64,000 nt of DNA from Verrucomicrobiaceae bacterium (lineage in GTDB: Bacteria; Verrucomicrobiota; Verrucomicrobiia; Verrucomicrobiales; Verrucomicrobiaceae), in assembly GCA_027486585.1 (NCBI GenBank), contig JAIXOU010000100.1, positions 186,001-250,000 of the forward strand. Reading direction: 5' to 3'. Each line of letters starts with the position of its first letter. The first letter of the stretch is position 1. Position numbers and translations under genes: made by a program. Under the pieces are notes generated by a model. It searched no databases, was not told the DNA's origin, and was given only the letters and a program-made list of their open reading frames with translations. Positions 3,671-50,489 of this stretch are shown here, piece after piece.

Positions 3671-3792
3671 ACGGTCTGGATTAGCCGATTCCTACTCCTT
3701 TTTTATCATGGCGGGTGCCGTCTGATGCGGCTGAATTTTGTCATTCTGCTTTCATCTGTGTTTCTGCCGCTTAAAGGCAGGGGACTTAAATT

Positions 3793-32381: not shown

Positions 32382-34097
32382 TTAAGCTCGGGCTGTCGAA
32401 GAGGTGCGTTTGCTATCGTCACGGAAGAAGGAGTCCATGCGATGACGGAGGTCGGCGTAGAAGGCACTGGCCATTTCTTCGAGCATTTCAGCTTTGCCGG
32501 CGATGCCGTTGGCGGTCTGCTTCTCGCGCTCGAGACGGATTTTTTCCTGGAAGGTTTGTTCCAGTTCCATCAGGTGCTCTAGGAAGGCTTTGGCGGCGCG
32601 GCTGCGATCCACGCCTTCAATCAGGGAGCGCTCTAAAGGACGATTCTGGGTGATGTGCAGGAAGGGGCTGTCCACGAGCTGTTTCATGTAGCGATCAAAG
32701 CCTTTGAGGAAGGCTAGGCGCTCGCTGGCGAACTTGACTTCATCGCAATCGAGAAGGGCGTCATACGGACCGGGCTTGGAGAAGAACTTCACGACGAGTG
32801 GGATGGTGTCCACCAGCATGAAGAGCATGGATAAAACGAGGTAGGCGATGAAGGCGAAGTTTCCGCCTTCAGCCCCGTGATCAAAGAGGTCGTGCAGAGC
32901 CAGTGTTTGAGTAAGGATGTCGCGGCGAGGTTCATCACGGATCTTGGTGATGCGGGCTTCCGCATCGGTGCCGAGTCGGGTGATTTCTGCTTGGAGGTTG
33001 TTAAACTGAACGAGCTGGGCGTCGATCTGGGCTTTGAGAGTTTCGCGGATAGAGTTTTGCTGGCCGACGAATTGATCTGCCTGCTGCTGCTGGACTTGGC
33101 GGCGTAGGGCATCGATCCGATCTTGTTCAGCTTTGATCTTGGATGCATCGGCTAGGGCTTTGGCATCGAGCGCTGCATTCACACCATCTTCAGCGGCTTT
33201 GATTTCTGCGACAATGGCGACGCGGGTTTGGGTCATGGTATTGAGAATGCCACTGAGGCGTGCAGACTCGGCACGGCGCCAGGTGAGCTGGTCTTCCTGG
33301 ATGCTTTTAGCACGAGGTCCGAGACCGACGATACCACTGCGTTGGCCATTGACTTCCCGTTCAAAGTCAGTCTGCCACTGATTGAGTTCGGTGACGATTT
33401 TTTGGCTCTCAGCGCTGATTTTGGCCATCTCCTTATCCAGCGTTTCTAGCCGCAGTTTGCCGGGTGCAACGGCTTCGGCGATCTTGGAGTCGCGCTCGGC
33501 CTTGGCTTTCTTTTCATCGTCAGTCAGGGGCTTTTCGATAGGCTTGCCATTTTCGTCCAAGAACTTGGCGGAGAAAGAGGCATTCCAGGCTTCGCGCTGG
33601 GTGGCGATTTCGGTTTCGAGTGTTTTAGCACGAACTTCGACGGCGGCTTTTTGCGTCACAGCGAGCTGGCGGACTTTATCAATATCGATCTGTCTCTCCG
33701 CTTCGATCACCGAAGTGATGGTGTCTTTGAAGAGAAGCAGGGTCAGCGGGTGGGAGATGGTGATGCCCATGAGCGCCGCGACGACGATACGCAGGCTGAA
33801 CTGGGAGAGCTTGCGGAAGATGTTTTGATAGGCGCGATAGGTGGCTAGAAGGGCGCGGTCCACCGTGAGGATGATGAAGGCCCAGACGAGAGAAACGATG
33901 CCAATGATCCACCAGTTATCCGTGAGTGTGGAAAGGGCATAGGCACAGGCAATGGTGGCAAAGGTGGATGGCACAAGAACGGTGGCACCGAAGGCCACAT
34001 ACTTCCGGCGTTCCCAGGCAGGGCAGGCGTCGAGATTATCGGCACTGGCTCCGGCGAGCCAGAAGAAGACGCGTTCGATTCGGTCAAGGATGCTCAT
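32382..34097 (-). CDS. DUF4407 domain membrane protein
   Basis: A 571-residue membrane protein. The N-terminus has the family opening (RVFFWLAGASADNLDACPAW) and two to three helices within about 130 residues. A long helical, coiled-coil-prone region follows (about 140-385; Ala/Glu/Lys/Gln-rich, for example KIKAEQDRIDALRRQVQQQQ), with a further helix near residue 410 (NFAFIAYLVLSMLFMLVDTI). The C-terminus is cytoplasmic and charged. DUF4407 proteins are widespread and uncharacterised. The gene is in the same direction as the permeases and divergent from the nuclease gene. No partner suggests a function. Confidence 0.85.
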   Translation of the reverse strand: MSILDRIERVFFWLAGASADNLDACPAWERRKYVAFGATVLVPSTFATIACAYALSTLTDNWWIIGIVSLVWAFIILTVDRALLATYRAYQNIFRKLSQFSLRIVVAALMGITISHPLTLLLFKDTITSVIEAERQIDIDKVRQLAVTQKAAVEVRAKTLETEIATQREAWNASFSAKFLDENGKPIEKPLTDDEKKAKAERDSKIAEAVAPGKLRLETLDKEMAKISAESQKIVTELNQWQTDFEREVNGQRSGIVGLGPRAKSIQEDQLTWRRAESARLSGILNTMTQTRVAIVAEIKAAEDGVNAALDAKALADASKIKAEQDRIDALRRQVQQQQADQFVGQQNSIRETLKAQIDAQLVQFNNLQAEITRLGTDAEARITKIRDEPRRDILTQTLALHDLFDHGAEGGNFAFIAYLVLSMLFMLVDTIPLVVKFFSKPGPYDALLDCDEVKFASERLAFLKGFDRYMKQLVDSPFLHITQNRPLERSLIEGVDRSRAAKAFLEHLMELEQTFQEKIRLEREKQTANGIAGKAEMLEEMASAFYADLRHRMDSFFRDDSKRTSSTARA

Positions 34098-34204
34098 GGA
34101 TCTCCGAAGATGGGGGCTTAGGAATAACTGTCAACGCTGGGGATGATAAGAATGGGCAGGAGGAAGCTTGCGGACAATCGTCTGGTGCGTATAAAAAAAT
34201 CGTC

Positions 34205-37200
34205 ATGCGTTCGCAGCGCCATTTTTGCCTGATCGTCTGGATCATTCTCACGGGAACCGCGTGGGGTCAGATTAGCTATACCGGCGGCGTGGTGGTTCAG
34301 GATTTTAATTCGCTGCCCACTACTGGAACTTTTACTTTCAGCGGCAAAGGTCCACAGTCTCTGGACCAAGCACCCATCCTTGCCATAAGCGCTGTCGGCT
34401 GGAGCCTTTTTGCCAATGTCGGCACGCCCTTGGTCTTTGCGGTAGATGGCGGAGGCAGCACCTCTGCCTCAGTTTACTCGTATGGCAGTCCCGGTAGTAG
34501 TGAGCGGGCTTTGGGTTTCATGGCCAACAGCACTCGCACCTGCCGCGCGGGGCTGAGACTGGTGAATAATACCCAGCAAACGTTGACGCAACTGCACCTC
34601 TCCTATGTCGGCGAAGAGTGGCGGAGTGGTGGAACTACAAATGCCAATAACCTGATCGTCGATTACCGCATCTCGGCGCCGCCATTTGATATTGATTCAG
34701 GTGGTAGCTACACGGCTGTGACGGCTCTGAATTTTAACTCGCCGACGAATTACACTCAAAGTGTCGGTTTGAACGGCAATCTCAATGCCAACCGTAGCCT
34801 CATTACTGCCACGATCAATGTCTCATGGCCTGTGGGTCAGATGCTCATGATCCGCTGGCGTGATGATGATTCAACCGGAGAAGATGATGGCCTTGCCATT
34901 GATGACGTTGCCTTTTATGCCACGCCTCAGCCTGTTTCTGCTCCGCAAGTGCTTAGCACCCTGCCCGTGGCTTCAGCAAGTGGAGTGGCCACAGCTTCAC
35001 GTCTAACCGTGCTCTTTAATCAACCCGTTATCGCCACTGGAGTTTGGGCACAGTTGGCCGACGCAAGTATGAATCCTGTGCCAGTGACTTTTAGCGGTGG
35101 ACAAATGCGTTTTGAGATCACGCCTACATCACGTCTGTTGCCGGGGCAAAACTACTCACTGACGATTTTTGCCAGCCAGATCACCAATTCCAGCAGTGCG
35201 GCTATGGCCACCAATGTGGTCATCCCATTCACCACACAGTCAGCGAGTTTAAATCCACAACTTATCAGTGCTGTGCAGGGAAGTGGCACAGCTACCCCTT
35301 TCGCCAATCAAGTGGTAACGGTGACGGGTGTTGTGACGGCCGATTTCCAAGGGGCTCCACCTGCACTTGGTGGATTTTTTGTGCAGTCACTAGCAGCGGA
35401 TGTTGACGCCAATGCAGCTACTTCGGAGGGGCTCTTTGTCTATGACTTTAGTTCTGAAGGTAGTGGTCCTATGAGTGTAGGTGATCTGGTCACGCTTACT
35501 GCTACAGCGGCAGAATTTGGATCCCAGACGCAGCTTTCTAATGTGTCTGCCCTTAGCCTAAATGGGACTAGTTCACTGCCAGCACTGACAGATGCCGCAT
35601 TGCCCATGCTCACCACGACCTCACTGGAATCCCTCGAGGGCATGAGTGTGCGCTTCCCGCAGGCGCTACACGTCACTTCCACAAGCACAAGCTCCAACTT
35701 CACCTTCAACTATGCCCGTAATGGTGAACTCATCCTTGCTGCTGAGGGCCCGCTGATCGAGCCGACGGAGTTCATCGATCCCAATGATGCACCTGCCAGT
35801 GGCACGAGTACTAGTGGCAACTCCAACGTCGCTGCTATCACGGCTCAAGCTTCAGCAACGGCACTGCGGACCCTTGTTTTAGATGATGCTAGCACGTCGG
35901 TTTATCCAGTTCCCACTCCCTATTTGAATGCCCAAAACACCCGCCGCTGTGGGGATACGGTGACTGGCCTTACTGGTATTCTAAGTTTCAGCAATGGGCG
36001 CTATCGCGTACAGCCAACAGGTGCAGTTACTTTTGCAGACACGAATCCACGCCCAACCGCACCACCTGCGCTTACAGGAAGATTAAAGGTTGTGGCTATG
36101 AATGTGTTGAACTACTTCACCACTTTTGGTGGAAGTAATGACCGTGGTGCAGACAATGCTGTCGAGTTTCAGCGCCAGAAGGACAAGATTATCTCCGCTC
36201 TCATGGGGCTGGACGCAGATATTCTTGGGCTGATGGAAATCCAAAATACCAGTGGTGCCGTGAGTGACCTCATTACCGCTCTGAATGCTGCCGTAACAGA
36301 CGATTACACACTCGTCGCCGCACCAGTGAATGGAGTCGGCGGAGATGCCATCCGCTGTTTGTGGCTATACCGCGCCTCTAAAGTCAGTCTTTTTGGGCCT
36401 TGTTATTCTGATGGCGACAGCGTCTGGAATACACCAAACCCACTGAGACAACCGCTAGCGCAGGTCTTTATCGAAAAAAGCACAGGCGAGCGGTTTCTCG
36501 GGTGCTTGAATCACTGGAAATCTAAATCATCCAGCGGTGCTTCGGGCCTGAATATCGATCAAAATGATGGGCAAGGAGCTTGGAACGATCTACGCAAACA
36601 ACAGGCTAATCGGCTCCACGCATGGCTACAAAGCATCGCCACTCTTACCGGGGAAAATGACATGCTCATTCTGGGTGATCTCAACTCTCTCGGAGAAGAA
36701 GATCCGCTGGATGTGTTGCGTGCATTTGGTTATGCAGATCAGAGCGCCCGCTTTGACGCGAACGATTACAGCTACCGGAATACGGAGCTTCGAGGTCGAT
36801 TGGATCACGCTTTTGCGACTATCAGCTTAGACTCACAGATCCTCAGCGGCGGTCACTGGCACATCAACGCAGATGAGCCTGCCTTTTATGACTACAACAC
36901 GGAGAACAAAAGCGCTGCTCATTTGCTGGTGAACGTGGGCACGCCTTTCCGTAGCAGTGATCACGACCCAATCCTCATGGGGGTGAGTTTGATGCCGCAG
37001 TCCACGACTTATGCCATGTGGCAGGCTGCGCGAGTTTGGGTCTCTGCCAGCACGGCGGCTACGGACGATCCAGATGCGGACGGATTGCAGAATTTGGTGG
37101 AGTTTGCCATGAATACGAATCCTGAAATGTCGAGCGCTACTCAGCTGCCGGTGGCAGATCGTTTGCAGAATGAGTTACGGTTTGATTACCGTCAGCGTGT

Positions 37201-37378
37201 GCAGCTCAGTGGCACTCAAATCATCCCTGAATGGTCGGAAGATATGGTTTCCTGGTCGCTCATGCCAGCTGCTAGCACGCTGCAAAGTCTGGATTTACAG
37301 ACAGAACTGAAGCGTGCTGTTATTTCGACCGTTGGTAAAGATCGCCTTTTCCTGCGACTCAGGGTTACTGGGCCTTAG
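34205..37378 (+). CDS. Secreted ExeM/NucH-type endonuclease
   Basis: A 1,057-residue extracellular nuclease. The ATG at 34205 starts a signal peptide ([20 protein letters not shown] then GQ). Next come an N-terminal beta-rich domain (about 20-240), a Big_5-like domain (about 245-345; [20 protein letters not shown]), and an OB-fold-like region (about 350-610; [14 protein letters not shown]). The endonuclease/exonuclease/phosphatase domain follows at about 620-935, with [17 protein letters not shown] (catalytic E), [18 protein letters not shown] and SSDHDPILM (active-site D and H). The C-terminal 100 residues are a Verrucomicrobia-type tail ([20 protein letters not shown]). It probably degrades extracellular DNA for nutrient or matrix remodelling. 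It ends 14 bases into convergent coaD. Confidence 0.92.
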
Positions 37379-38150: not shown

Positions 38151-41100
38151 ATGAGTAATTTCGAAAATAGAAATTCTATTGGCTTGGTTTCTGCCTTGGT
38201 TTTCATGGTGGGGATTTGCGGTTGGGTTTTCAGAGAGGCTTTTGAAGAGCCCAATCAAGTGCCTGTTAAACCCGCACGGGTTGAGGAAGGCTCGCCAGTT
38301 GTATCTTCGACCAAAAAAGTAAAGTTTGTTAAGGCTAAGCCAAAGCCGTTGCCTGAAGTCGATTTGAGGTCGAAGAGTGCTGGGCCTGTTCTGCCGGTGG
38401 GGCGGGGTGAGGCTTTTGCGCAGCTTAGACGGAATGTTCCCACAGCCGAAGTGATGTTTGATGAAATTTCGGGCGCTCCAAGCCATTTACAAGCCACGGG
38501 GAGGTTTCTGACAGCAAAGAACTCGGGCAAAAAGGCAGCAGACATCGTGCGGGACTACGTGGCGGAATATCCAGACTTGTTTGGGCATCCAGCTGAGTTT
38601 TTGAATCAAGCGAAGGTTTCCCGTGAGGATGTGACGGCCCATAACGGGATGAGTACCCTGGTGTGGGAGCAACAGCATTTGGGAATCCGCCTTTATAACA
38701 CGATCTTTAAAGCCAACGTGACTCGGGATGGCGAGATCGTGACATTGAATGATCATTTTCTGCCCGATCCAGCAGGCGCTGCGGGCGCGCAGGATGCCGT
38801 GCCTGATCTTACGGCTGAGGATGCGGTCGTCGCTGCAGCAGCAGGTCTGGGCGATGAAGTGGCACTGGCAGATCTGAAGGCCAATGGCGAGGCCGAAGGG
38901 GTGGAGCAAAAGCAACAATTCACGGCTCAGAAGCTCAGCGATACCACCGCGCACTTAACTTGGCTGCCGCTGAGCGCAGAGGAGATGCGACTGGCCTGGG
39001 ATGTCGTGACGTTCAGCTTGGCGCGCAATGAGATGTATCAAAGCGTGATCGACGCTGAAACGGGTGAGGTGCTGGCGCGGCGTAGCCTGACGGCAGATAT
39101 CAGTGATGCGAGCTACAGGGTCTTCACGAGTGATAGCCCATCGCCTTTTTCTCCGGGGCATGCGAATGTGAGCAGTGTGCAGCCGCCTGAGGTGCCTCGG
39201 CAGCTAGTGACGCTTTCAGCCCTGAATACGACGGCATCGCCGAACGGATGGATCGACGATGGGGATACCCAGACTCTAGGGAACAATGTGGACGCCCATA
39301 CAGATGTGGACGCCAATAATGTAGCAGATCTGCCGCGGCCTACTTCAGCGTCGCGTGTGTTTGATTTTACGGCCGATTTGACGCAGGCCCCGAGCACCTA
39401 TAGGGATGCGTCAGTCACCAATCTGTTTTATTGGACGAACGTCTTTCATGACAAAATGTATGAACTGGGCTTCACGGAGACGGCTGGGAATTTTCAAACG
39501 AATAATTTTGGCCGTGGCGGCCTGGGTAATGATGCCATTCAAGCTGATGCCCAGGATGGGAGCGGCACGGATAATGCGCAATTTTCGACACCGCCCGGTG
39601 ATGGTTCACCTGGCCGAATGCAAATGTTCCTATGGACAGGGCCGAATCCAGATCGTGATGGGGACTTTGAGATGGAGGTGGTGCTACATGAGTTAGCTCA
39701 CGGGGTGACAAACCGGTTAGTGGGCGGTGGTGTGAACATTAGTTCTAGCGCGACACAAGGCATGGGAGAAGGATGGTCGGATTTTTACGGTCTAGCCATG
39801 CTGGCGGAGGCTGGAGATGATGTGAATGGAAATTGGGCTCGTGGGGGCTGGAGTCGTTACCTGTTGAGTGGGACCTTCACGGAAAACTATTACTATGGAG
39901 GACGCCGCTACCCTTATACGACGAACAAGATGAAGAATCCGCTGACTTTGCGGGACATTGATCCGACGCAGCAAAATGTGCATCCAGGCATTCCTCGTCA
40001 TCCTATGGTGGCCAATACCGCTGATCAGGTGCATAACATGGGAAATGTATGGTGCGTGACTCTGTGGGAAATGCGGACCAATTTGATCCTGAAGCATGGC
40101 TTCGCTGTAGGGAATCAGCTGGCTCTGAGACTGGTTACGGATGGTTGTAAGCTCTCCCCGGCCAATCCCAATTTCCTGCAAGCTCGTGATGCCATCATTC
40201 AGGCAGATTTGGTCAATAATGCGGCAGCGAATCAGCGGGAATTATGGGCGGCTTTTGCGAAGCGGGGGATGGGGCTGAGTGCTACGGCACCGGCGGCCAC
40301 GACGACGGTGGGCATCTCTGAGGCGTATGATGTGCCGGATGATTTATTGGTGACTCCGGTAAGTGGTTTTGACTCACAAGGCGTGGCTGGTGGGCCGTTT
40401 TCTCGAACCTCCCGCATTTACACGATCCAAAATAATAGCATGTCGCCCGTAAACTGGACGGCGGCTAAAACACAGAGCTGGACGACGATCAGCGCCACAA
40501 GTGGGACGCTGGCTGCGGGCGCTTCGACGACGATTAATTGGTCACTCAACACGGGTGCAAATAGCTTGGGGGTGGGTGAGCAGATGGATACTTTGAGCAT
40601 TGCGAATGGGACGACGACGCTCGTGCAATCTAGGCCTCTGAGCCTGATCGTGAATGCCGCTCTTTTAGCGCAAACGATCACCTTTCCTGCTCTAAGCGCA
40701 AAGCTGCCTAGCGCGGCTCCTTTTCCCCTGAGTGCTACAGCTAGCAGCAGCCTGCCGGTGACCTACACGCTGCTGAGTGGTCCTGCGACTCTCAGTGGGA
40801 ATACGGTGACTTTGACTGGCTCCTCGGGGGCCGTGACGATTCGTGCCAGTCAGTCTGGGAATGGCTTTTTTTCACCTGCGGCGGATGTGGTGCGGACGTT
40901 TGTAGTGGGGAGTGGGTTTGGCTTTACCAAGGTGATGGCTTCTCCTAGTGGCTCGTTTACGTTTGGGCTGAAGGCTGACGGCACGCTTTGGACCTGGGGT
41001 GGGGCAGGCTTAGGCACTGGCATCTTGGCAGACACCTCCACCGGTGGGCGTGCCACACCTTTGCAAATCGGGTCTGCCACCACCTGGAGTGATCTGGCAG

Positions 41101-44100
41101 CAGGTGCGAGTCATGGCTTGGCGCTACGCAGCAATGGTACGCTCTGGGGCTGGGGCACAAATACGAATGGCCAGGTGGGGGATGCAACAACGGTCACGAA
41201 GACCGCGCCTACACAGATTGGTGTGCTGACGACTTGGGCAAAGATCGCGGCAGGTCAGAGTCACTCTGCGGCCATCCGCACAGATGGTACTCTTTGGTTG
41301 TGGGGTATAAACTCATCCAATCAGCTCGGTGACGGTACGACGACTCAGCGCACCAGTCCTGGGCAGCTGGGCACGGCGACCAATTGGGTGTCAGTGGCCT
41401 GTGGAAGCACTCACACTTTAGCCGTGAATAGCAGTGGGGAACTTTGGGCCTGGGGGGCAAATGGTGCCAGTCAGCTCGGTGACGGCACGACGACGACCAG
41501 CAGTGTGCCATTGCGTATCGGTACAGCCACCAATTGGGCCAGCGTCACGGCGGCATTGAGTTCATCGTATGCTTTAAAAACGGACGGTACTCTCTGGGCT
41601 TGGGGCTCCAATGGTGCGGGTCAGCTTGGAGATGGGACCGTTGTTACAAAAACGACCCCGACTCAGATCGGCACAGACACGACCTGGACACAAATCTCTG
41701 CTGGGGCGAATAATAGTGCTGGTAGAAAGAGTGATGGCAGCCTGTGGGTATGGGGTAGCAATGCCAGTGGGCAATTTGGCAATGGCACGACGACAAACGT
41801 CACTTCGCCAACGGCATTTGCTGCGGGGGCCACGGACTGGGCGGCTATTAGCTGTGGGGTGAACTTCATTACGGCTCAGCGTAATGATGGCAGTCTTTGG
41901 ACGGCTGGAGAAAGCAGCGGTGGCACGGGCGTGCAGCCTCGTGGTCTGGCCTTGGCGGCAGCAAGTACTTCTACCTGGCAGCAATTGACTGGGACAAACG
42001 GCACCTTTCATGCCGTGCGCTCAGATGGCACGCTGTGGGGTTTTGGGGCAAATAGCTCTGGCCAGGTGGGGAATGCGTCCACCACGGAAGTTCGGACGCT
42101 GACTCAGGTGGGCTCGGCGGTGGATTGGCGTCAGGTCTCAGGTGGCACGAGTCATACGATGGGGGTGAAGACGGGAGGCACCCTCTGGGCCTGGGGCTCT
42201 AATATCTCCAATCAGCTAGGAGATGGCACCACTACCACGCGTTCCAGCCCCGTCCAGATCGGCACGGACAGTGACTGGCGACAAGTCGCCGCAGGTAGCA
42301 TTCATACCATGGCCGTAAAAACTACGGGCACTCTTTGGGGTTGGGGGACGAACGGCAACGGCCAGCTTGGAGACGGCACGACGACGGCCAAAACGGTGCC
42401 GACTCAGATCGGAACGGATACGAATTGGTCAAAGGTAGCGGTGAGTGCCACCCATACACTGCTGCTGAAAATAACCGGAACGCTCTGGGCCTGCGGCTCC
42501 AATAATTCAGGTCAGCTCGGGGATGGATCGACGACGCAACGAACTGCCCCGGTCCAAGTAGGCACGGATACAAACTGGACAGAGATTGCAGCGGCTGGCT
42601 CAGGATTTTCCCTGGCGCTGAAATCCAACGGCACGCTCTGGAGCTGGGGACAAGGCGTGAACGGTCAGCTTGGTTCTGGCTCCACGGCCAATCGATCTGC
42701 TCCAGTACAGGTGGGAACGGACACGGATTGGGCTAGAATCAGTGCAGGAAACAACACGACGGTGGCGATCAAATCGAATGGCACTATCTGGACCTGTGGA
42801 CTAGGCGCACATGGTCAGCTGGGGGATGGTCAGACGGGAAGTGTGAGCACGCTGGCACGCATCGGCAATGAAACGACTTGGCTACATGCGGCAGTCGGGC
42901 AGAACTCCCTGGCGGCGATCCGTTCGGATGGTTTTTGGACGGCAGGTGCCTCTGCCGCAGGCCGTACTCTGGCTGCGGGGCGTGACACGCGGCTTCTCTT
43001 GCCAATCCTGCCAGCTTTGCAAACGCAGAGCTTCAACACGCTGGCTGCCAGTTATTCCACTTACCAGTCCCCCGTGGTTGTTTCGGCGACGAGTGGGCTG
43101 ACTCCCTCGTTGACCCTGATTTCTGGGCCAGCCACTCTGAGTGGCAATCAATTGACGCTCATTGGCAATGGCACGGTGGTGCTCACTGCGGCACAGTTTG
43201 GGGATGACTCCGCCTGGAACTCCATCCCGCCGACTCGGATGAGCTTCACGGTTGGAAATAGTTTAGCGGTGAGCTTTCCGAGTCTGGGGAGTATTGGACT
43301 GACGGCCAATGGCTTTGATGCGCGTAATGTGGTGCTGACTCCGACGCTTGGATTTGCCCCCACTTTGGGCACTGCCCTGACTCTAGTGAATAACACAGGC
43401 TCGGGCTCTGTGCTGGGCACTCTGGCTGGCATTCCGCAGGATGGGTATCTGACGATGACCTTTGGTGGGGTGACGTATGGCTTTAGGGTCGATTATTTCG
43501 GCGGTGATGGCAATGACATCGTGCTGACTCACGAGCAGACGCCACAGACAATCACCTTCAATCAAATCAGCCCAAAGGAGACGACAGATACCCCTTTTGC
43601 AGTCACGGCAACGAGCACGGGGAATCTGCCCGTCACGCTCAGCATCGCTGCCGGCCCCGCGACGATTAGTGGGAATACCATCAGTCTCACTGGCACGGTT
43701 GGCTCTGTGACCGTCAAGGCCACGCAAGCTGGGAGCACTTTGTTTACGGCTGCTCCTGACACGCTGCATACTTTTGCAGTTGGCACTAACGTGAAGTTTG
43801 CTAGCCATAGTACCTCCAATACAGGTAATCATGCCGTGGCCGTCGGAACCAATGGATGGCTGTGGGGCTGGGGGGTAAACTCGGCCAATCAGCTCGGTGA
43901 TGGCACCACCACTACGAGTCATCAGCCCGTCCGCATCGGCACAGCTACGGATTGGCTTAGAGTCGCCGCAGGAAGTAGCTATTCCTTGGCCATTAAGACA
44001 AACGGCACTCTCTGGGGTTGGGGCAGCAATACCACTGGCTCTTTAGGGGATGGCACTGGTGTCAGCAAAACCACCCCCACGCAGATCGGCACCGCTACGA

Positions 44101-47100
44101 ACTGGTCTAAAATCAGTGCTGGTAGTGGTCATACGCTGGCGCTGAGGACGGATGGCACTTTGTGGGCAACGGGGACTAACACTCAAAGTCAGGTGGGCAA
44201 TGGGATGACCACAAATGTGCTTACTTTTACGCAGATCGGCACGGCGACGGATTGGGTCTCGGTCTATGCGGCTCAGCAGCACTCTATGGCGATCAAGTCA
44301 GATGGCACACTCTGGGTCTGGGGCTTGAATAATAATGGGCAACTCGGGCTTGGTGATACGGTCAATCGCACTGTGCCCACGCAGCTTGGGACAGCGACAA
44401 ATTGGAAGGCTGTCGCTGGCAGTCTGCACTCGGTCGGGGTGCGCACGGACGGAACCCTCTGGGGGTGGGGACTGAATTCAAGCGGACAAGTCGGAGATGG
44501 CACGGCAAACAACCGCTCTCTTCCGGTGCAGATTAGTTTTGCCACGAATTGGAGTGATGTGGGCTCGGGCATTAGCACCTCTTTTGCTATAACGACAGAG
44601 GGTGTGCTCTGGTCCTGGGGGGCGAACAGCACCGGCCAGATTGGAGATGGCACCTATATCAATCGTAGCGTGCCGACTCGTTACCCAGGTTTTGGTGCCT
44701 GGAGCGGGGTGCAGGGAAATACGAACGGTGCCCTGCTGACCCGAACAGATGGCACCGTCTGGACCTTGGGGGATGGCGCTGGCTCAGGCAGCACGGGACT
44801 TGGGCCACGTAGTCTTGCGCGGGCGATGGCATCAGGGGTGAATAACCAGATCAGCGCTGGTGTGAATCATAATTTGGTCAGTCGCAGTGATGGCACCCTA
44901 TGGGTTTTTGGCGGCGGTGGCAATGGCCAGCTTGGGAATGGAACGACGGCGATTTCAGGGATCGATCCGCAGCCTGTGGGCACCGCCACCAGCTGGGCGA
45001 GCGTCCGCGCGGGTGGCGGCTTCTCCATGGGGATTCAGGCAGACGGCACGCTCTGGGGGTGGGGGGCAAATGCCATCAGTCAGCTTGGGGATGGCACCAC
45101 GACCGCGCGCACCTTGCCCGTGCAGATTGGCACGGCTTCAGATTGGGCCGTGGTGGCACCCTCACCTTCAGCCTCGCTGACGAGCAATGGATTCACCGCG
45201 GCGATCAAAACAAACGGCACACTCTGGGGCTGGGGCTTGGGGACCGGTGGGCAACTGGGTGACGGAGCTAGCACCAGCCGCACCACGCCCACACAGATTG
45301 GAACGGATGCTGACTGGAGCAAGGTGGCGACTGGCAGTGCTCATACTTTGGCCATCAAAGCCAGCGGCAGCCTCTGGGCGGCTGGCACGAATACCAATGG
45401 TCAGCTGGGTGACGGTAGCACGACGACCCGCGCCGCCTTTGTCCAGATCGGCACTGCCACGGACTGGGCCAGTGTGGCCGCCTATGGCTCCTCATCCTAT
45501 GCCATCAAAACCAATGGCACACTCTGGGCCTGGGGCCTGAACACTACGGGTCAGCTAGGTGACGGCAGCACGACCCAGCGGACGGCACCTGTGCAGATCG
45601 GCACGGACACCAATTGGCTGCAAGTGACAGGTGGCTCAACTCATGCAGGGGCTATCAAGACAACCGGCACCCTTTGGGTTTGGGGCAGTAACTTGTTTGG
45701 TCAGCTCGGTGATGGTACTACCACTCAGCGCAGCAGCCCCGCGCAGCTCGGTACTCAGGCGGGCTGGGTGGCCGTAAGTGCCGGTGATGCACGCATCATA
45801 GCTCTCCGAAATGATGGCTCCGTCTGGAGCGCCGGTGCGAATGCTCAATTGCGCTTGGCTAGCACCTCTGGGCGTTCTCCCTTTGTCATCGCGCCCGTTG
45901 TACCTGCCCTGGCCACGCAGACGCTAAATACGACTCCGATTGGCAGCAACCCCTATCGCTTTACCGCCAGCAGTGGGCTGCCAGTACAGCTTTCCCTGGT
46001 CTCTGGTCAGGCCACGATCACTGGGGATCAAATCAATGTCACAGGGCCGCCCGGCACGCCTGTAGTACTGCTGGCCTGGCAGCCTGGAGATGAGTTTGCC
46101 TGGAATGCAGTCGGTCCTGAGCAGATCACCATCGGGACTCTGGTGGCACCGGTCATCAATACTACGGCTCATGCCAATGTGGATGGTTCAGGCGCTGATC
46201 TTACCGCCATGGTGAATCCGAATGGTGCCCTAACTTCGGTGAGCTTCCAGTATGGCACTTCTCCGACTCTGGCATCTTTTACCACCACGGCTAGTCAGAG
46301 TGTAGGCTCAGGCACATCGAGTTCTGCGACTCCGGTCTTTGCCCTCAGTGGTCTGAATGCTGGCGTGACGTATTATTACCGTGCTACGGCCTCCAATGCT
46401 GGCGGCACGGTCACCAGTAGTATTCAAAGCTTCACCACACTAGGGATCGACATCATCGTGGAGCAGCCAGCAGCAACGGAGATCAGCAGCGGAGTGACAT
46501 TTGGTTATGGAAGTCTCAACATGGGCACCAGCAGCGGTCTGACCTTTACGCTTCGAAACGCCACTCCCGGCACCGCGGTGAGCATCGGCACGATCTCGCT
46601 AACGGGTGCTGATGCGCCTCATTTTGTGCTGAGCACGGTCGGTATAAATAACTCCCTCAGCAGTGGCCAAAGCACGACTTTCAGCGTTAGCTTCACGCCG
46701 CTGCTCCAAGGCAGTCGCAGCGTCACTCTGAGCATCCCGAGCAATGATCCAGATGAGAATCCCTTTCTTATCACGCTCACTGGCACCGGTGTAGCCGTCC
46801 CAGGCCCTGGACAGACGATTTTTGGCCCCGCTTCTTTTGCTCCACGATTCGTCAGTGATGGACCATTGTCGCTTCTCGGCTTCGGCTCTACCAGTGGTCT
46901 TCCTGTCTCACTCCAGATCGTCGCTGGTGGTGGGGGAACATTGACTGGCACCACCCTCACCCCTAGCACCACCGGAGGCCCCGTGACGATTCGCATTTCA
47001 CAGTCCGGTGGCAGTGGCTATACGTCGGCACCCGATGTCTATCGGACCTTTGTCGTCGGCGAGGGTAAATTTAGCAGGTTGGCCATCGGGCCAATGGCCA

Positions 47101-49883
47101 ATCATAGCGTTGGCATTAAAACGGATGGCACGCTCTGGGCCTGGGGGCAGAACAACAATGGGCAAGTCGGCAATGGCAGCACCACGGACGTGCGCGTGCC
47201 AGTAAAGATCGGCACCTTTACCAATTGGTCCTCAGCCGCAGCAGGTGCCGATTTTACCGTGGCCATTCGTGCGGGTGCCTTGTGGGTCTGGGGCGGGAAC
47301 GCCAGCGGTCAGCTAGGACTAGGAGACACAATTAGCCGCTCTTCGCCAACCCAAGTCGGTGCATTGACGACCTGGTCTCAAGTGGCAGCTGGGGCAGATT
47401 TTGTCATCGCCGTGCAGACCAATGGCACGCTCTGGGCCTGGGGAGGAAACGCAAGTGGCCAACTTGGGCTCGGAGATCTAGTTAGCCGAAATGTGCCGAC
47501 GCAGATCGGCGTAGCTACCAATTGGAGTACCAGCGCACCTAGCCTTGCGGCCGGCAGCGCCCATGCTCTTGCTCGCACCACGACGGGGAATCTGTTTGCT
47601 TGGGGGCTCAATAGTAGTGGTCAGCTCGGTTTGGGAGATACTAGCACTAGGACATCCCCTGCCCAAGTCGGAACTAGCACAGCTTGGAGCAAGCTGGCTT
47701 GTGCCGCCAATACATCCTACTCGATTCAGAGCGGCGGATTACTCTGGGCCTGGGGCAGTAACAATGGCTATATGGTGGGAGATAACTCACTGACGAATCG
47801 TACCTCACCTGTCCAGATTAGTGGTAGTATTGCTACCTGGACCCAGATCGTCCCAGGTCAGGGCCACTGCCTGGCCACACGCTCTGACTTCAGTCTCTGG
47901 GCCTGGGGCGGAGGCTCCGGCACGGCACCGCAGGGCTTTGGGGACAGCAGCATCCGTACTGCGCCGAATCGGGTCGGCACAGATAATGACTGGTCCACAG
48001 CACTGGCAGCCATCAGTGGCGGTGCAGATCACAGTCTGGGCGTGAAGATTGACGGTTCTCTCTGGAGTGCAGGCGGTAATAACCGTGGCCAAATGGCCAC
48101 TGCGGCCCCAAACCTCACCGCTATCACCAGTGGTGGCATTTTAGCTTTTTGTGAAAACAATTGGGCCAATCATTTCATTCGCAGCAATGGCACTCTGTGG
48201 GGCAGCGGCTCCAATTTCAGTGATCTCGGTGATGGCACCACCACCCGCAGACCGCAACCAGTCCAGATTGGCTCTGCCACGAACTGGATCTCTTTAGCTG
48301 GCGGCCAGAGCTTCACCCTAGCTTTGCGCAGCGACGGAACCCTTTGGGCAGCTGGGATCAATTCCAATGGCCAGCTGGGAGACTCCTCTACGACGACTCG
48401 CACGGCTTTTATCCAGATAGGCGTGGTATCCACCTGGTCAAAAATCTCCGCAGGCTCCTCACACAGTGCCGGTATCCGCGCTGATGGCAGTCTGTGGACC
48501 TGGGGCCTAAATACCAATGGCCAGCTCGGTGATTCCACAACGACGCAGCGCAGCGCTCCCGTCCAAGTGGGCACAGCCACTGACTGGGTCGCCGTGGATT
48601 GCGGCGGCAGTCATACCCTGGCTCTGAAGTCAAACGGCACGCTCTGGGCCTGGGGTCTGAACTCAAGTAGTCAGCTCGGTGATGGCAGCACGGTTCAGCG
48701 GACAGCACCCGTGCAGATCGGCACGGATACGAATTGGGCCAAGATCTCAGGCGGTGCAGCTTTCAGTCTGGCCATCAAAACAACCGGCAGCCTTTGGGCC
48801 TGGGGGCTCAATGGCTCCGGTCAGCTGGGAGATGGTAGCCTCACGACTCGCTCCGCTCCTGTTCAGATCGGCACAGACACCACATGGGCGCAATTGAACG
48901 CAGGCATTGAACACAGCATCGCATTGAAATCAGACGGCACCGCCTGGGGCTGGGGTGGCAATTATTATGGCCAAACCGCCGACGGCACGACGGTGAACCG
49001 CAATACACCCGCGCAGATCATCCCAGGCACCAACATCTGGTCGCTGCTAGGCAATGGCAACGGTTTCCACACCTTGCTAGCCAGTGCTGACGGCACCCTC
49101 TGGGGCATCGGTAGCAATGCGGACTATCAGGTGACTAGCCTAGCCCGAGTCAATAGCCTCTTTGAGTATGCGCACCCTGGCATCTCCACCCAGACCATCA
49201 CTTTTCCAGCCGTGACCATCTCCAACTATGGCACCCCCATCCCACTCACCGCCACAGCCAGCTCGGGATTACCCATTACCTATTATGTGAGTGGTCCTGC
49301 CAGCGTGAGTGGAAACCAGCTCACTGTCACCGGCCCAGGCACCGTAAAAATCCTCGCCTATCAAACAGGCGAACGGCCCGTGTGGCATACACCGCCCCTC
49401 ATGCAGGGCACCGTCATGAGTCTGGTGGAGGCATGGCGGCTCACTAACTTTGGCAGCACTGTGGAATCCGGAGCTACTGCCAATACAGGTGACGCAGACG
49501 GTGACGGCGTCGCCAATCTCTTCGAGTTCGCCTTTGGCACGAATCCCTCCAGCAACGCCTCAGGGGCTGGAGTCCTGGTGACTACGGGTGGACTCGGCGG
49601 TGGTTCCTTGGTCACGCGCGGTCAACCCACCACCCTCTTTGGGCCTATCAGCACCGGCACGGATTACCGAGTCGTCTTCATTCGCCGAAAAGATCATGTG
49701 GCAGCAGGCCTAATCTACACGCCGCAGTTCAGCGCTACCCTTTCCTCCTGGCAAAACAGCACCACTACGCCCACGGTGCTCGCAGATGACGGCACCTACC
49801 AGGCGGTGAGCGTGCCGTATCCACGTTTCATTGCTGGTAAAAAAGCTCGATTCTTTAGAATGTCCGTTGATATCACCCCCTGA
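38151..49883 (+). CDS. Giant secreted M36 metallopeptidase with six predicted RCC1 propellers
   Basis: A 3,910-residue exported protein. After a hydrophobic signal or anchor (IGLVSALVFMVGICGWVF) comes an FTP-like propeptide (about 60-275). A fungalysin-type M36 domain follows (about 400-735), with the zinc site HELAH at H513-H517 and the third ligand in GEGWSDF (E540). A BACON-like domain follows (about 740-838). Three super-blocks come next, each of a short beta module, 14 RCC1-like units of about 50 residues (marks: GTLWxWG.N, QLGDG, P.QIG) and a second such beta module. Blocks 1 and 2 are separated by a GGDGND-type spacer. Blocks 2 and 3 are separated by an Fn3-like domain and a choice-of-anchor D-like domain. 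The C-terminus is a Verrucomicrobia tail (GDADGDGVANLFEFAFGTNP). The frame is intact over 11.7 kb. Function: extracellular proteolysis with a large adhesive scaffold (inference). Confidence 0.93.
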   Translation: MSNFENRNSIGLVSALVFMVGICGWVFREAFEEPNQVPVKPARVEEGSPVVSSTKKVKFVKAKPKPLPEVDLRSKSAGPVLPVGRGEAFAQLRRNVPTAEVMFDEISGAPSHLQATGRFLTAKNSGKKAADIVRDYVAEYPDLFGHPAEFLNQAKVSREDVTAHNGMSTLVWEQQHLGIRLYNTIFKANVTRDGEIVTLNDHFLPDPAGAAGAQDAVPDLTAEDAVVAAAAGLGDEVALADLKANGEAEGVEQKQQFTAQKLSDTTAHLTWLPLSAEEMRLAWDVVTFSLARNEMYQSVIDAETGEVLARRSLTADISDASYRVFTSDSPSPFSPGHANVSSVQPPEVPRQLVTLSALNTTASPNGWIDDGDTQTLGNNVDAHTDVDANNVADLPRPTSASRVFDFTADLTQAPSTYRDASVTNLFYWTNVFHDKMYELGFTETAGNFQTNNFGRGGLGNDAIQADAQDGSGTDNAQFSTPPGDGSPGRMQMFLWTGPNPDRDGDFEMEVVLHELAHGVTNRLVGGGVNISSSATQGMGEGWSDFYGLAMLAEAGDDVNGNWARGGWSRYLLSGTFTENYYYGGRRYPYTTNKMKNPLTLRDIDPTQQNVHPGIPRHPMVANTADQVHNMGNVWCVTLWEMRTNLILKHGFAVGNQLALRLVTDGCKLSPANPNFLQARDAIIQADLVNNAAANQRELWAAFAKRGMGLSATAPAATTTVGISEAYDVPDDLLVTPVSGFDSQGVAGGPFSRTSRIYTIQNNSMSPVNWTAAKTQSWTTISATSGTLAAGASTTINWSLNTGANSLGVGEQMDTLSIANGTTTLVQSRPLSLIVNAALLAQTITFPALSAKLPSAAPFPLSATASSSLPVTYTLLSGPATLSGNTVTLTGSSGAVTIRASQSGNGFFSPAADVVRTFVVGSGFGFTKVMASPSGSFTFGLKADGTLWTWGGAGLGTGILADTSTGGRATPLQIGSATTWSDLAAGASHGLALRSNGTLWGWGTNTNGQVGDATTVTKTAPTQIGVLTTWAKIAAGQSHSAAIRTDGTLWLWGINSSNQLGDGTTTQRTSPGQLGTATNWVSVACGSTHTLAVNSSGELWAWGANGASQLGDGTTTTSSVPLRIGTATNWASVTAALSSSYALKTDGTLWAWGSNGAGQLGDGTVVTKTTPTQIGTDTTWTQISAGANNSAGRKSDGSLWVWGSNASGQFGNGTTTNVTSPTAFAAGATDWAAISCGVNFITAQRNDGSLWTAGESSGGTGVQPRGLALAAASTSTWQQLTGTNGTFHAVRSDGTLWGFGANSSGQVGNASTTEVRTLTQVGSAVDWRQVSGGTSHTMGVKTGGTLWAWGSNISNQLGDGTTTTRSSPVQIGTDSDWRQVAAGSIHTMAVKTTGTLWGWGTNGNGQLGDGTTTAKTVPTQIGTDTNWSKVAVSATHTLLLKITGTLWACGSNNSGQLGDGSTTQRTAPVQVGTDTNWTEIAAAGSGFSLALKSNGTLWSWGQGVNGQLGSGSTANRSAPVQVGTDTDWARISAGNNTTVAIKSNGTIWTCGLGAHGQLGDGQTGSVSTLARIGNETTWLHAAVGQNSLAAIRSDGFWTAGASAAGRTLAAGRDTRLLLPILPALQTQSFNTLAASYSTYQSPVVVSATSGLTPSLTLISGPATLSGNQLTLIGNGTVVLTAAQFGDDSAWNSIPPTRMSFTVGNSLAVSFPSLGSIGLTANGFDARNVVLTPTLGFAPTLGTALTLVNNTGSGSVLGTLAGIPQDGYLTMTFGGVTYGFRVDYFGGDGNDIVLTHEQTPQTITFNQISPKETTDTPFAVTATSTGNLPVTLSIAAGPATISGNTISLTGTVGSVTVKATQAGSTLFTAAPDTLHTFAVGTNVKFASHSTSNTGNHAVAVGTNGWLWGWGVNSANQLGDGTTTTSHQPVRIGTATDWLRVAAGSSYSLAIKTNGTLWGWGSNTTGSLGDGTGVSKTTPTQIGTATNWSKISAGSGHTLALRTDGTLWATGTNTQSQVGNGMTTNVLTFTQIGTATDWVSVYAAQQHSMAIKSDGTLWVWGLNNNGQLGLGDTVNRTVPTQLGTATNWKAVAGSLHSVGVRTDGTLWGWGLNSSGQVGDGTANNRSLPVQISFATNWSDVGSGISTSFAITTEGVLWSWGANSTGQIGDGTYINRSVPTRYPGFGAWSGVQGNTNGALLTRTDGTVWTLGDGAGSGSTGLGPRSLARAMASGVNNQISAGVNHNLVSRSDGTLWVFGGGGNGQLGNGTTAISGIDPQPVGTATSWASVRAGGGFSMGIQADGTLWGWGANAISQLGDGTTTARTLPVQIGTASDWAVVAPSPSASLTSNGFTAAIKTNGTLWGWGLGTGGQLGDGASTSRTTPTQIGTDADWSKVATGSAHTLAIKASGSLWAAGTNTNGQLGDGSTTTRAAFVQIGTATDWASVAAYGSSSYAIKTNGTLWAWGLNTTGQLGDGSTTQRTAPVQIGTDTNWLQVTGGSTHAGAIKTTGTLWVWGSNLFGQLGDGTTTQRSSPAQLGTQAGWVAVSAGDARIIALRNDGSVWSAGANAQLRLASTSGRSPFVIAPVVPALATQTLNTTPIGSNPYRFTASSGLPVQLSLVSGQATITGDQINVTGPPGTPVVLLAWQPGDEFAWNAVGPEQITIGTLVAPVINTTAHANVDGSGADLTAMVNPNGALTSVSFQYGTSPTLASFTTTASQSVGSGTSSSATPVFALSGLNAGVTYYYRATASNAGGTVTSSIQSFTTLGIDIIVEQPAATEISSGVTFGYGSLNMGTSSGLTFTLRNATPGTAVSIGTISLTGADAPHFVLSTVGINNSLSSGQSTTFSVSFTPLLQGSRSVTLSIPSNDPDENPFLITLTGTGVAVPGPGQTIFGPASFAPRFVSDGPLSLLGFGSTSGLPVSLQIVAGGGGTLTGTTLTPSTTGGPVTIRISQSGGSGYTSAPDVYRTFVVGEGKFSRLAIGPMANHSVGIKTDGTLWAWGQNNNGQVGNGSTTDVRVPVKIGTFTNWSSAAAGADFTVAIRAGALWVWGGNASGQLGLGDTISRSSPTQVGALTTWSQVAAGADFVIAVQTNGTLWAWGGNASGQLGLGDLVSRNVPTQIGVATNWSTSAPSLAAGSAHALARTTTGNLFAWGLNSSGQLGLGDTSTRTSPAQVGTSTAWSKLACAANTSYSIQSGGLLWAWGSNNGYMVGDNSLTNRTSPVQISGSIATWTQIVPGQGHCLATRSDFSLWAWGGGSGTAPQGFGDSSIRTAPNRVGTDNDWSTALAAISGGADHSLGVKIDGSLWSAGGNNRGQMATAAPNLTAITSGGILAFCENNWANHFIRSNGTLWGSGSNFSDLGDGTTTRRPQPVQIGSATNWISLAGGQSFTLALRSDGTLWAAGINSNGQLGDSSTTTRTAFIQIGVVSTWSKISAGSSHSAGIRADGSLWTWGLNTNGQLGDSTTTQRSAPVQVGTATDWVAVDCGGSHTLALKSNGTLWAWGLNSSSQLGDGSTVQRTAPVQIGTDTNWAKISGGAAFSLAIKTTGSLWAWGLNGSGQLGDGSLTTRSAPVQIGTDTTWAQLNAGIEHSIALKSDGTAWGWGGNYYGQTADGTTVNRNTPAQIIPGTNIWSLLGNGNGFHTLLASADGTLWGIGSNADYQVTSLARVNSLFEYAHPGISTQTITFPAVTISNYGTPIPLTATASSGLPITYYVSGPASVSGNQLTVTGPGTVKILAYQTGERPVWHTPPLMQGTVMSLVEAWRLTNFGSTVESGATANTGDADGDGVANLFEFAFGTNPSSNASGAGVLVTTGGLGGGSLVTRGQPTTLFGPISTGTDYRVVFIRRKDHVAAGLIYTPQFSATLSSWQNSTTTPTVLADDGTYQAVSVPYPRFIAGKKARFFRMSVDITP
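40918..43020 (+). repeat. RCC1 block 1 (14 units, about 150 bp each)
   Basis: Fourteen RCC1-like units inside the giant peptidase gene, residues about 923-1623. Units 7 and 14 lack the QLGDG...P.QIG half and instead read WTAGESSGG... and WTAGASAAGR..., so the block splits naturally into 7 + 7. This is coding DNA, not a CRISPR or satellite. Confidence 0.85.
43793..45912 (+). repeat. RCC1 block 2 (14 units)
   Basis: Fourteen RCC1-like units, residues about 1881-2587. Units 7 and 14 are again degenerate (VWTLGDGAGSG..., VWSAGANAQLR...), with the short Arg-rich stretch in place of the loop. Unit order is the same as in blocks 1 and 3. Confidence 0.85.
47068..49180 (+). repeat. RCC1 block 3 (14 units)
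   Basis: Fourteen RCC1-like units, residues about 2973-3677. Units 7 and 14 are degenerate (LWSAGGNNRGQM..., LWGIGSNADYQV...). The second seven units are closer to the consensus than the first seven, which have more insertions (for example in units 3 and 6). Confidence 0.85.
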
Positions 49884-49895
49884 TAGATTCCTTTC

Positions 49896-50489
49896 ATGAA
49901 AAGCCTCCTCACACTTTCCATCGCCTGCCTCGTGATGCACTCGGCGGCACAAGCAGCCGTCGTCTATTCAGGCATCCGTAATCTCACCATTCCGGTAGAT
50001 CCCGATGGCTTGTATTTCAACATCGTCTCAGGCGCCACGTCTGCCACTGAGCCTGGAACGTTTAATACCGCCCCATGGTTTAATCCCTTCTTCGGTGGTC
50101 AAGACATCGGTGTGGGTAATCTTTCGCAGTTGGTCTTTGCCGGAGTGGATGTGCTCAATCTCGGCACCGGAACGCTCATCAGTGGAGCCAGTAACTTCGG
50201 CCCAGCAGGCTTTGGTGGTTCAGCGGTTCTTGGCCTTGCGCTGGGGAATTTCCAAATCACCACACCCGGTCTTCTCGGGATCGCTTTCAAGCAGACCGTG
50301 GGTGGCCCTGTTCATTACGGCTGGGTGCGGCTAGTCATCGACAATTCCTCTCCCGAAGGGACTGTGGTGGACTGGGCCTACGATAGCACCCCTGGCACTT
50401 CGATCCTTGCAGGTATCGTCCCAGAACCTAGCCGAGTGGTTTTGTGGATCTTCGGCTGCTTTGGCATGATGCTACCTCGCCGCAGATAA
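49896..50489 (+). CDS. PEP-CTERM protein
   Basis: A 197-residue exported protein. Signal peptide LLTLSIACLVMHSAAQA, a Gly-rich beta-type body, and a C-terminal sorting signal (VPEPSRVVLWIFGCFGMMLP followed by RRR) of the PEP-CTERM class, which is cut by an exosortase and anchors or releases the protein at the surface. The gene begins 12 bases after the giant peptidase stop, so they are probably one transcript. No exosortase gene is in the window. Confidence 0.9.
   Translation: MKSLLTLSIACLVMHSAAQAAVVYSGIRNLTIPVDPDGLYFNIVSGATSATEPGTFNTAPWFNPFFGGQDIGVGNLSQLVFAGVDVLNLGTGTLISGASNFGPAGFGGSAVLGLALGNFQITTPGLLGIAFKQTVGGPVHYGWVRLVIDNSSPEGTVVDWAYDSTPGTSILAGIVPEPSRVVLWIFGCFGMMLPRRR

Follow-up and report, generated by a model that had tools for sequence, protein, structure and literature searches.

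The RCC1-like domain (RLD) proteins UVR8, RPGR and RCC1 and the RLDs of HERC1 and HERC2 share a repeat that folds into a seven-bladed ring, with one ring in each of the chain regions listed for them, and fungal fungalysins of peptidase family M36 are short enzymes, the solved M36 chains matched here having 388-391 amino acids (aa). We describe a gene that joins these two kinds of part. In the window, by which we mean the whole 64,000-nucleotide stretch analysed from contig JAIXOU010000100.1 of a Verrucomicrobiaceae bacterium, an uninterrupted open reading frame (ORF) at 38151-49883 on the plus strand encodes a protein of 3910 aa. It has the catalytic domain (PF02128) and HExxH metal site in common with fungalysin, its match to the propeptide motif staying below threshold, and the repeat and ring in common with the RLD proteins, but unlike these it sets rings 7 + 7 without a spacer, three times over, between a bacterial protease head and a C-terminal domain. 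BLIP-II is a single ring. Like the window rings it is a seven-bladed propeller of the RCC1 group, secreted and bacterial (PMC9218822), yet it has no enzyme domain and is a beta-lactamase inhibitor, unlike the window protease. Long blade arrays in one protein, as found here, are also described in PMC9218822 for beta-propellers of up to 47 blades, and there structure prediction failed on the near-identical blades of the 47-blade case; that set is highly repetitive, whereas window blades of different blocks are on average ~44-47% identical and selection maintains block 3. Large-tailed bacterial M36 heads, again as in the window protein, make up families NF038111-NF038113, which are named by their sorting system, whereas the C-terminal domain of the window protein matches no NCBIfam or Pfam family. 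The head and repeats are of known kinds and the C-terminal domain is new to Pfam and NCBIfam; in the literature searched, which mostly excludes subscription journals, no description of this assembly or of a protease with six RCC1 rings was found.

We are highly confident of the anatomy of this giant M36-RCC1 protein. Its tail consists of three copies of a module (Ig-like, 14 RCC1 units, Ig-like), with a Fn3-like and a choice-of-anchor D-like domain, both sub-threshold, between copies 2 and 3, and RCC1 blocks account for ~53% of the chain. 'Ig-like' is our own label for the beta-rich domains that flank the blocks, which have no Pfam match. The features are as follows (HMM, hidden Markov model).

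38151-49883, plus strand: giant M36-RCC1 protein, 3910 aa (ORF and profile matches)
38175-38234, plus strand: single hydrophobic segment close to the N-terminus (~residues 9-28), either a signal peptide or a signal anchor (by eye)
38613-38756, plus strand: FTP propeptide motif, residues 155-202 (PF07504, 19.8 bits, cut-off 21)
39186-40283, plus strand: Peptidase_M36 domain, residues 346-711 (Pfam; PDB sequences 4k90, 7z6t, 7qfy, 7qp3)
39687-39770, plus strand: zinc site HELAH (513-517) and E540 (invariant columns, 21 M36 heads)
40656-40913, plus strand: Ig-like (beta-rich) domain before block 1, ~residues 836-921 (alignment; strands in model; approximate boundaries)
40914-41957, plus strand: block 1 ring 1, RCC1 units 1-7 (unit HMM, model, superposition)
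41961-42962, plus strand: block 1 ring 2, RCC1 units 8-14 (unit HMM, model, superposition)
43008-43265, plus strand: Ig-like (beta-rich) domain after block 1 (alignment and model; approximate boundaries)
43779-44828, plus strand: block 2 ring 1, units 15-21 (unit HMM, alignment)
44829-45887, plus strand: block 2 ring 2, units 22-28 (unit HMM, alignment)
45918-46145, plus strand: Ig-like (beta-rich) domain after block 2 (alignment; approximate boundaries)
46233-46439, plus strand: Fn3-like domain, residues 2695-2763 (PF16656 sub-threshold, 19.6 bits of 30)
46491-46757, plus strand: choice-of-anchor D-like domain, residues 2781-2869 (NF012200, 40.9 bits, cut-off 45)
46803-47060, plus strand: Ig-like (beta-rich) domain before block 3 (alignment; approximate boundaries)
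47061-48125, plus strand: block 3 ring 1, units 29-35 (unit HMM, model, superposition)
48126-49163, plus strand: block 3 ring 2, units 36-42 (unit HMM, model, superposition)
49203-49445, plus strand: Ig-like (beta-rich) domain after block 3 (alignment and model; approximate boundaries)
49497-49880, plus strand: C-terminal domain, 128 aa (residues 3783-3910), DxDGDG motif, then a beta-rich part ending KKARFFR...P
49896-50489, plus strand: small protein, 197 aa, with PEP-CTERM-like VPEPS-hydrophobic-RRR tail (by eye); partner gene of the C-terminal domain

Pfam models match the tail strongly, RCC1 (PF00415) at 873.8 bits (cut-off 21.7) and the WD40_RLD/RCC1-like domain (PF25390) at 1310 bits (cut-off 150). 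A unit HMM built from the window protein's own units returned 42 units in blocks of 14 at residues 922-1604, 1877-2579 and 2971-3671, which is the count and the block plan that the initial annotation had proposed. That annotation had further held that units 7 and 14 are degenerate in every block and in the same way. They are indeed weak throughout (40 and 10 bits in block 1, 30 and 41 in block 2, 45 and 41 in block 3, thus 10-45 overall), and 28 of the 36 remaining units score 50-78 bits, but the other 8 also fall below 50, most notably unit 6 of block 3 at 22 bits and the first unit of block 1 at 33, and the common pattern is loose in block 3, where unit 7 reads NRGQMATAAPNLTAI.

AlphaFold2 models were made of blocks 1 and 3, that is four of the six rings, and block 2, in register with block 1 at 46% identity, was placed by alignment. 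The block 1 model (residues 850-1745, from our own alignment of ten double-ring modules) has a mean predicted local distance difference test (pLDDT) score of 77.6 and a predicted template modelling (pTM) score of 0.53, and the block 3 model (residues 2880-3910, 18 alignment rows) has 77.4 and 0.59, pTM values at which the mutual placing of the rings is not fixed. In block 1 units 2-5 and 9-13 lie mostly at pLDDT 87-96, units 1, 6-8 and 14 partly at 58-93 and the stretches following units 7 and 14 at 30-46; its strand list gives four strands to units 1-6 and 8-13 and three to units 7 and 14. Unit 14 of block 3 has three strands, then a low-confidence four-residue strand (793-796).

Superposition on solved structures separates the rings. 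For block 1 the fit switches from ring 1 to ring 2 at model residue 412 (protein residue 1261), with model residues 70-412 on UVR8 (4dnu; Z 48.9, 1.8 Å over 339 residues) and 412-743 or 416-743 on HERC2 domains (Z 46-47, 1.6-2.0 Å over 327-331), and in block 3 model residues 16-422 lie on RPGR (Z 44.3, 2.1 Å over 328) and 438-767 on HERC2 (Z 46.8, 1.6 Å over 329). The UVR8 rows for block 3 (Z 49-52, 1.6-2.1 Å over 339-355) start in ring 1 and end beyond ring 2, a range that by itself does not assign a ring. Over both blocks UVR8, HERC2 (7q40, 3kci) and RPGR superpose at Z 44-52 and 1.6-2.1 Å over 326-355 residues; Foldseek gave block 1 TM-scores by target of up to 0.82, several UVR8 alignments spanning both rings at a high root-mean-square deviation (rmsd). 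Taken together, these predictions support two separate seven-bladed rings in each modelled block, and by repeat count there would be six in all, in line with the two propellers per block proposed earlier, block 2 following by register. Closure of each ring is read from the full-ring superposition, the closing units being of low confidence. Against the ring reading stand those same units, the weakest in both models (pLDDT ~33-83 in block 1 and 34-82 in block 3, middle units mostly 87-98), and unit 7 of block 3, which keeps a short four-residue fourth strand (444-447). The suggestion that a degenerate unit marks each ring end fits block 1, where units 7 and 14 are the only three-stranded ones and the fit switches rings after unit 7; the strand number itself is not uniform, unit 7 of block 3 having four.

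In the catalytic head Peptidase_M36 (PF02128) matches residues 346-711 at 365.8 bits (cut-off 23.3), the four matching PDB sequences (4k90, 7z6t, 7qfy, 7qp3) are extracellular metalloproteinases, and FTP (PF07504) at 19.8 bits falls just short of its cut-off of 21. H513, E514, H517, E540, D544 and H628 are invariant columns across 21 aligned M36 heads, the HExxH/E residues among them, and the zinc site is thus intact as first annotated; their roles we take to be those of the corresponding residues in thermolysin and fungalysin. The best NCBIfam matches are the sorted M36 families, all far below cut-off: T9SSA_dep_M36 (NF038113; 376.5 bits against 885), myxo_dep_M36 (NF038112; 339.1 against 1500) and rhom_dep_M36 (NF038111; 302.3 against 1700).

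Among 96 relatives searched, 21 gave an M36 match (29 matches in total). We examined at length 26 M36 ORFs from 19 genomes, window included, leaving out the fragmentary L041, L042 and L047; a contig or locus end cuts 4 of the 26. RCC1 arrays occur in four: the window protein, L061, L064 and L059. L061, from another genus of the same family, has 41 HMM hits with unit 14 recovered by alignment, and L064, from the same genus as the window, has 42 units (the unit HMMs differ slightly, giving 42 and 41 hits for L064 and 41 by both for L061); the two are colinear with the window in the same 3 x 14 order, block 1 being 67% and 63% identical to theirs, degenerate units included. L059 has 14 units close to its C-terminal end, and all ten RCC1 blocks of the four proteins align in register. 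The peptidase-RCC1 combination is thus present in other Verrucomicrobia. On genome contigs, at least 2 of 82 M36 ORFs in the best 80 of 399 M36 loci carry RCC1, many being cut at the 10-kb flank, and these two appear to correspond to L061 and L064. The six-ring plan is therefore neither unique, with two homologues, nor the largest, given 63 units in a subtilase relative.

In a sibling species (L191, G024:C254) block 3 is 95% identical at the amino-acid level and gene order is kept. Over 700 codons of block 3 the non-synonymous rate (dN) is 0.030 and the synonymous rate (dS) 0.359, and judging from this ratio of 0.084 block 3 is under purifying selection. The L191 contig begins inside block 2 and, relative to the window, 214 bases are absent with a change of frame, whether through assembly or in reality. 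These data bear on the thought, raised with the initial annotation, that the block number is an assembly artefact, or else that the gene is decaying. The genome is a draft of 147 contigs, and repeats break assemblies, perhaps so in L191; however, the DNA copies are 60-84% identical to the reference copy of the repeat finder (60% being its floor) and hard to confuse, the 3 x 14 order stands in two other assemblies, which answers against artefact, the frame is open over 11.7 kb, and the dN/dS ratio is low. We regard artefact or decay as very improbable.

At 60-84% identity the units are old and not fresh copies, and fresh tandem unit duplication is ruled out on the same ground. Units at the same position in different blocks are slightly more alike than others (0.468 against 0.435 in the window protein, permutation p 0.0015; p 0.0105 and 0 of 2000 in two homologues), a weak signal that may reflect whole-block duplication, and the unit identity comparison gave no signal of duplication between ring 1 and ring 2. 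Between homologues same-index units have a mean identity of 0.55-0.57 against 0.41-0.43 for other units, though the best match stands at the same index in just 20/41, 15/42 and 14/41 comparisons; we set aside unit-by-unit orthology, since best matches are mostly off the same index though the diagonal mean is higher.

RCC1 matches were found in 43 of the 96 relatives, and their units come in sevens. Our panel comprised 40 regions round the best-scoring RCC1 matches, not a random choice, together with the window, L059, L061, L064, L075 and L076, the last two (G000:C97 and G000:C5) being further RCC1 genes of the window genome, L075 with two separate blocks of 7 units and L076 with 7 units; the counts cover blocks of at least 4 hits and exclude 4 blocks that run into a contig or locus edge. 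Multiples of 7 make up 56 of 73 blocks in the whole panel, and with the window gene and its three homologues excluded the remaining 42 ORFs contain 63 blocks, 48 of them with exactly 7 or 14 units (35 of these ORFs have at least one exact block and 30 exact blocks only). The 15 exceptions comprise six 8-unit blocks, five 6-unit blocks and single blocks of 4, 5, 12 and 15 units. In fact, five of the 8-hit blocks measure 6.9-7.0 unit lengths, because they start and end mid-unit, and the sixth (L190) measures 7.3. The binomial p of 3e-28 assumes independent blocks, which they are not, and our p values serve as a guide only. Inside the 24 outside 14-unit blocks the median scores dip at unit 1 (37 bits), units 7 and 8 (37 and 36) and unit 14 (30), units 2-6 and 9-13 reaching 49-68, with unit 7 below the others (Wilcoxon p 3e-6) and unit 7 or 8 the lowest of units 2-13 in 17 of 24. 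By these counts the RCC1 units of this bacterial group follow a rule of sevens, and proteins that otherwise differ share the fused 7 + 7 double ring. One relative is a 5722-aa ORF (L194/L203, G047:C42) in which a subtilase domain precedes 63 RCC1 units arranged 14+14+14+14+7, its block starts spaced 984-992 residues apart. One protein with RHS repeats (L172, G058:C1) carries an N-terminal 14-unit RCC1 block, and 36 of 50,697 phage records have RCC1-type matches.

Considering these parts together, we give about an even chance to the view that the window protein is a surface-docked M36 protease with a six-ring multivalent binding deck. Its sequence suggests a zinc metallopeptidase of family M36 that is probably exported and then retained on the cell surface. 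The head would be made as a proenzyme (the weak FTP match), exported and then activated; the six rings, each a disc, would form a deck whose loops hold a protein or a surface polymer and which keeps the protease against its substrate; and the C-terminal domain would dock the giant protein on, or mature it with, the small PEP-CTERM-type protein, which exosortase would process. A binding role is suggested because several of the solved rings matched by fold are bound to a protein or peptide ( RPGR-PDE6D 4jhp, RCC1-Ran 1i2m, HERC2 with a peptide motif 7q41 and BLIP-II-TEM-1 1jtd), because block 3 is under purifying selection, and because the most divergent unit columns between homologues (14, 15 and 31, then 33 and 34) appear to be the strand 1-2 turn and strand 3-4 loop, on one propeller face. 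Mimicry of Ran exchange, which the name RCC1 might bring to mind, is not expected, as the bacterial protease head speaks against it.

The rings might instead be a stalk of folded, protease-resistant discs that lifts the catalytic head off the cell without specific ligands, which is the main rival although we think it unlikely. It gains from the loops showing no excess of change, and from relatives in which RCC1 is swapped for ELWxxDGT or Kelch repeats, as expected if length and stability alone counted. Conversely, the dN/dS ratio of block 3 and the likeness of same-index units suggest that each blade is kept, and in a spacer both sequence and block number might be freer to vary, yet structural constraint alone could lower the ratio. 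Fast-evolving binding loops as such are unsupported. We also considered that the rings act like inhibitors or regulators, binding as BLIP-II does and holding competitors' enzymes or shielding the protein's own active site until substrate arrives. The solved BLIP-II chains (1jtd, 3qhy, 3qi0) do match (Z 27-28, rmsd 2.2-2.5 Å over 247-252 residues), and BLIP-II is itself a secreted bacterial member of the RCC1 group; but a shared fold is silent on the ligand, UVR8, HERC, RPGR and RCC1 reach a higher Z (~39-52, partly through longer chains), and the neighbouring genes give no pointer to a target enzyme, so that we judge this improbable. Equally improbable in our view is that the protein is mainly an adhesin whose M36 head only trims the protein itself or neighbouring surface proteins. 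The RCC1 share of the chain would suit an adhesin, as would the 36 of 49 RCC1 ORFs with neither HExxHG nor a subtilase motif (several are truncated and two are pieces of a sibling gene), yet the metal site is intact in 21/21 heads, and decks are borne by two unrelated protease families, the subtilase serine motif occurring in 9 of the 49 and a Pfam scan finding the subtilase domain in 3/3 scanned (L177, L199, L194/L203), which suggests proteolysis as the purpose.

The surface-docked deck must also be set against several observations that weigh on the other side. We infer ligand, proteolysis, export and location from the anatomy, which alone is observed, and loop sites are not faster between close relatives (3 changes in 125 sites against 29 in 539 elsewhere). 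No partner gene follows 7 of the 35 best C-terminal-domain matches, or 23 when the first 53 are taken, and in the list tested 21 of 51 partner matches lack the C-terminal domain. L059 and L064 end in another C-terminal type, which is not among the C-terminal-domain matches listed, and docking by the partner route is therefore inapplicable to them. Finally, the best NCBIfam model for the window's own partner, NF038129, reaches 13.7 bits of 65.

The candidate docking partner is encoded 12 bases after the stop codon, and its 197 aa have, by eye, a signal-peptide-like start and a VPEPS...RRR end. PMC4960237 describes PEP-CTERM tails as sorting signals, thought to direct proteins to the cell surface, that were first recognised in Verrucomicrobium spinosum; for Akkermansia muciniphila 23 are predicted. 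We searched the 96 relatives separately with the C-terminal 128 aa, which have no Pfam or NCBIfam match, and with the small partner, and counted pairs among the 53 top-listed C-terminal matches and the full set of 51 partner matches, taking up to 700 bases as directly downstream. Of the 35 best C-terminal-domain matches 28 have the partner directly behind them on the same strand (30 when the first 53 are taken), and the domain directly precedes 26 of the 30 best partner matches (30 of 51 overall). These 30 pairs come from 22 genomes, six adjacent pairs being in G024; between the two matches of a pair the gap has a median of 56 bases and in one case is 510. Two of the seven partnerless best matches are G024:C492, at a contig edge, and G055:C18 (L068), which has interrupted partner pieces. 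The large proteins that bear the domain vary widely, from 320 to 4781 aa among the uncut, and include M36, RCC1, ELWxxDGT and other kinds, while in some loci (L214, L217, L222) the partner forms the first part of a longer ORF. From gene neighbourhood, then, the domain and its PEP-CTERM-type partner appear to form a gene pair conserved across the order, nothing like which appeared among the papers listed by a literature search. The window genome has two exosortase (PF09721) matches at 129.0 and 125.5 bits (cut-off 25.7), and the L061 partner homologue scores 17.9 bits against the PEP-CTERM model TIGR02595 (cut-off 16). Docking through the partner protein is a tentative proposal, to which we give somewhat less than an even chance. 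A second domain-partner pair of the window genome (L158, G000:C130:174-1157) sits at the very start of its contig, for which reason its large protein is cut off. Upstream of the giant gene, an 1150-aa ORF at 33926-37378, which we take to resemble an extracellular nuclease, ends in a similar DPDADG...FLRLRV tail with a weak C-terminal-domain match (E 0.0017).

Heads much like the window's are joined to other tails. The M36 head of L057 is 67% identical to that of the window, yet it is followed by ELWxxDGT repeats in two blocks of 18, and that of L066 (62% identical) by one ELWxxDGT block of 18 and Kelch. With ELWxxDGT or Kelch on near relatives of the head and RCC1 double rings on subtilases, the propeller tail looks like an exchangeable part at the level of domain order. 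ELWxxDGT blocks count 18 HMM hits in all four found (L057, L066, L068; the family is named for L057 and L066), and 18 might split as 2 x 9 or 3 x 6 blades. In a tree of 21 M36 heads the window groups with L061 (100/99) and L064 falls elsewhere; forcing window, L061 and L064 into one clade costs 25.5 log-likelihood units and is rejected (approximately unbiased (AU) test, p 0.022), and adding L059 costs 79.3 (AU p 1.3e-5). Since the RCC1 tails are colinear and the heads are not one clade, head and tail seem to differ in part of their history, through exchange or repeated loss. The AU result for three heads (p 0.022) is of moderate strength, and a single origin followed by losses may account for it.

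More broadly, we can picture, with some hesitation, a combinatorial surface system of this bacterial order in which an M36 or subtilase head carries a swappable propeller tail and often a C-terminal domain held by a PEP-CTERM partner. The tails would possibly be RCC1 7 + 7 double rings, ELWxxDGT arrays of 18, or Kelch, and, as a similarly tentative part of the picture, the domain and partner might be a pair of a new kind, dedicated to docking or sorting, with the deck as a cargo-specific recognition part.

The stronger general result lies in the sevens, in exchangeable propeller tails on giant proteases and in the conserved domain-partner pair. Sevens and 7 + 7 double rings offer a natural rule for reading long propeller arrays whose near-identical blades have defeated prediction, and the C-terminal domain with its PEP-CTERM-type partner is a simple candidate for surface retention of giant proteins in this group. 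Swapping of heads and tails between giant proteases, if true, would give bacteria a means of retargeting the enzymes they secrete, and the window protein offers a test case for the construction of giant bacterial enzymes out of interchangeable parts.

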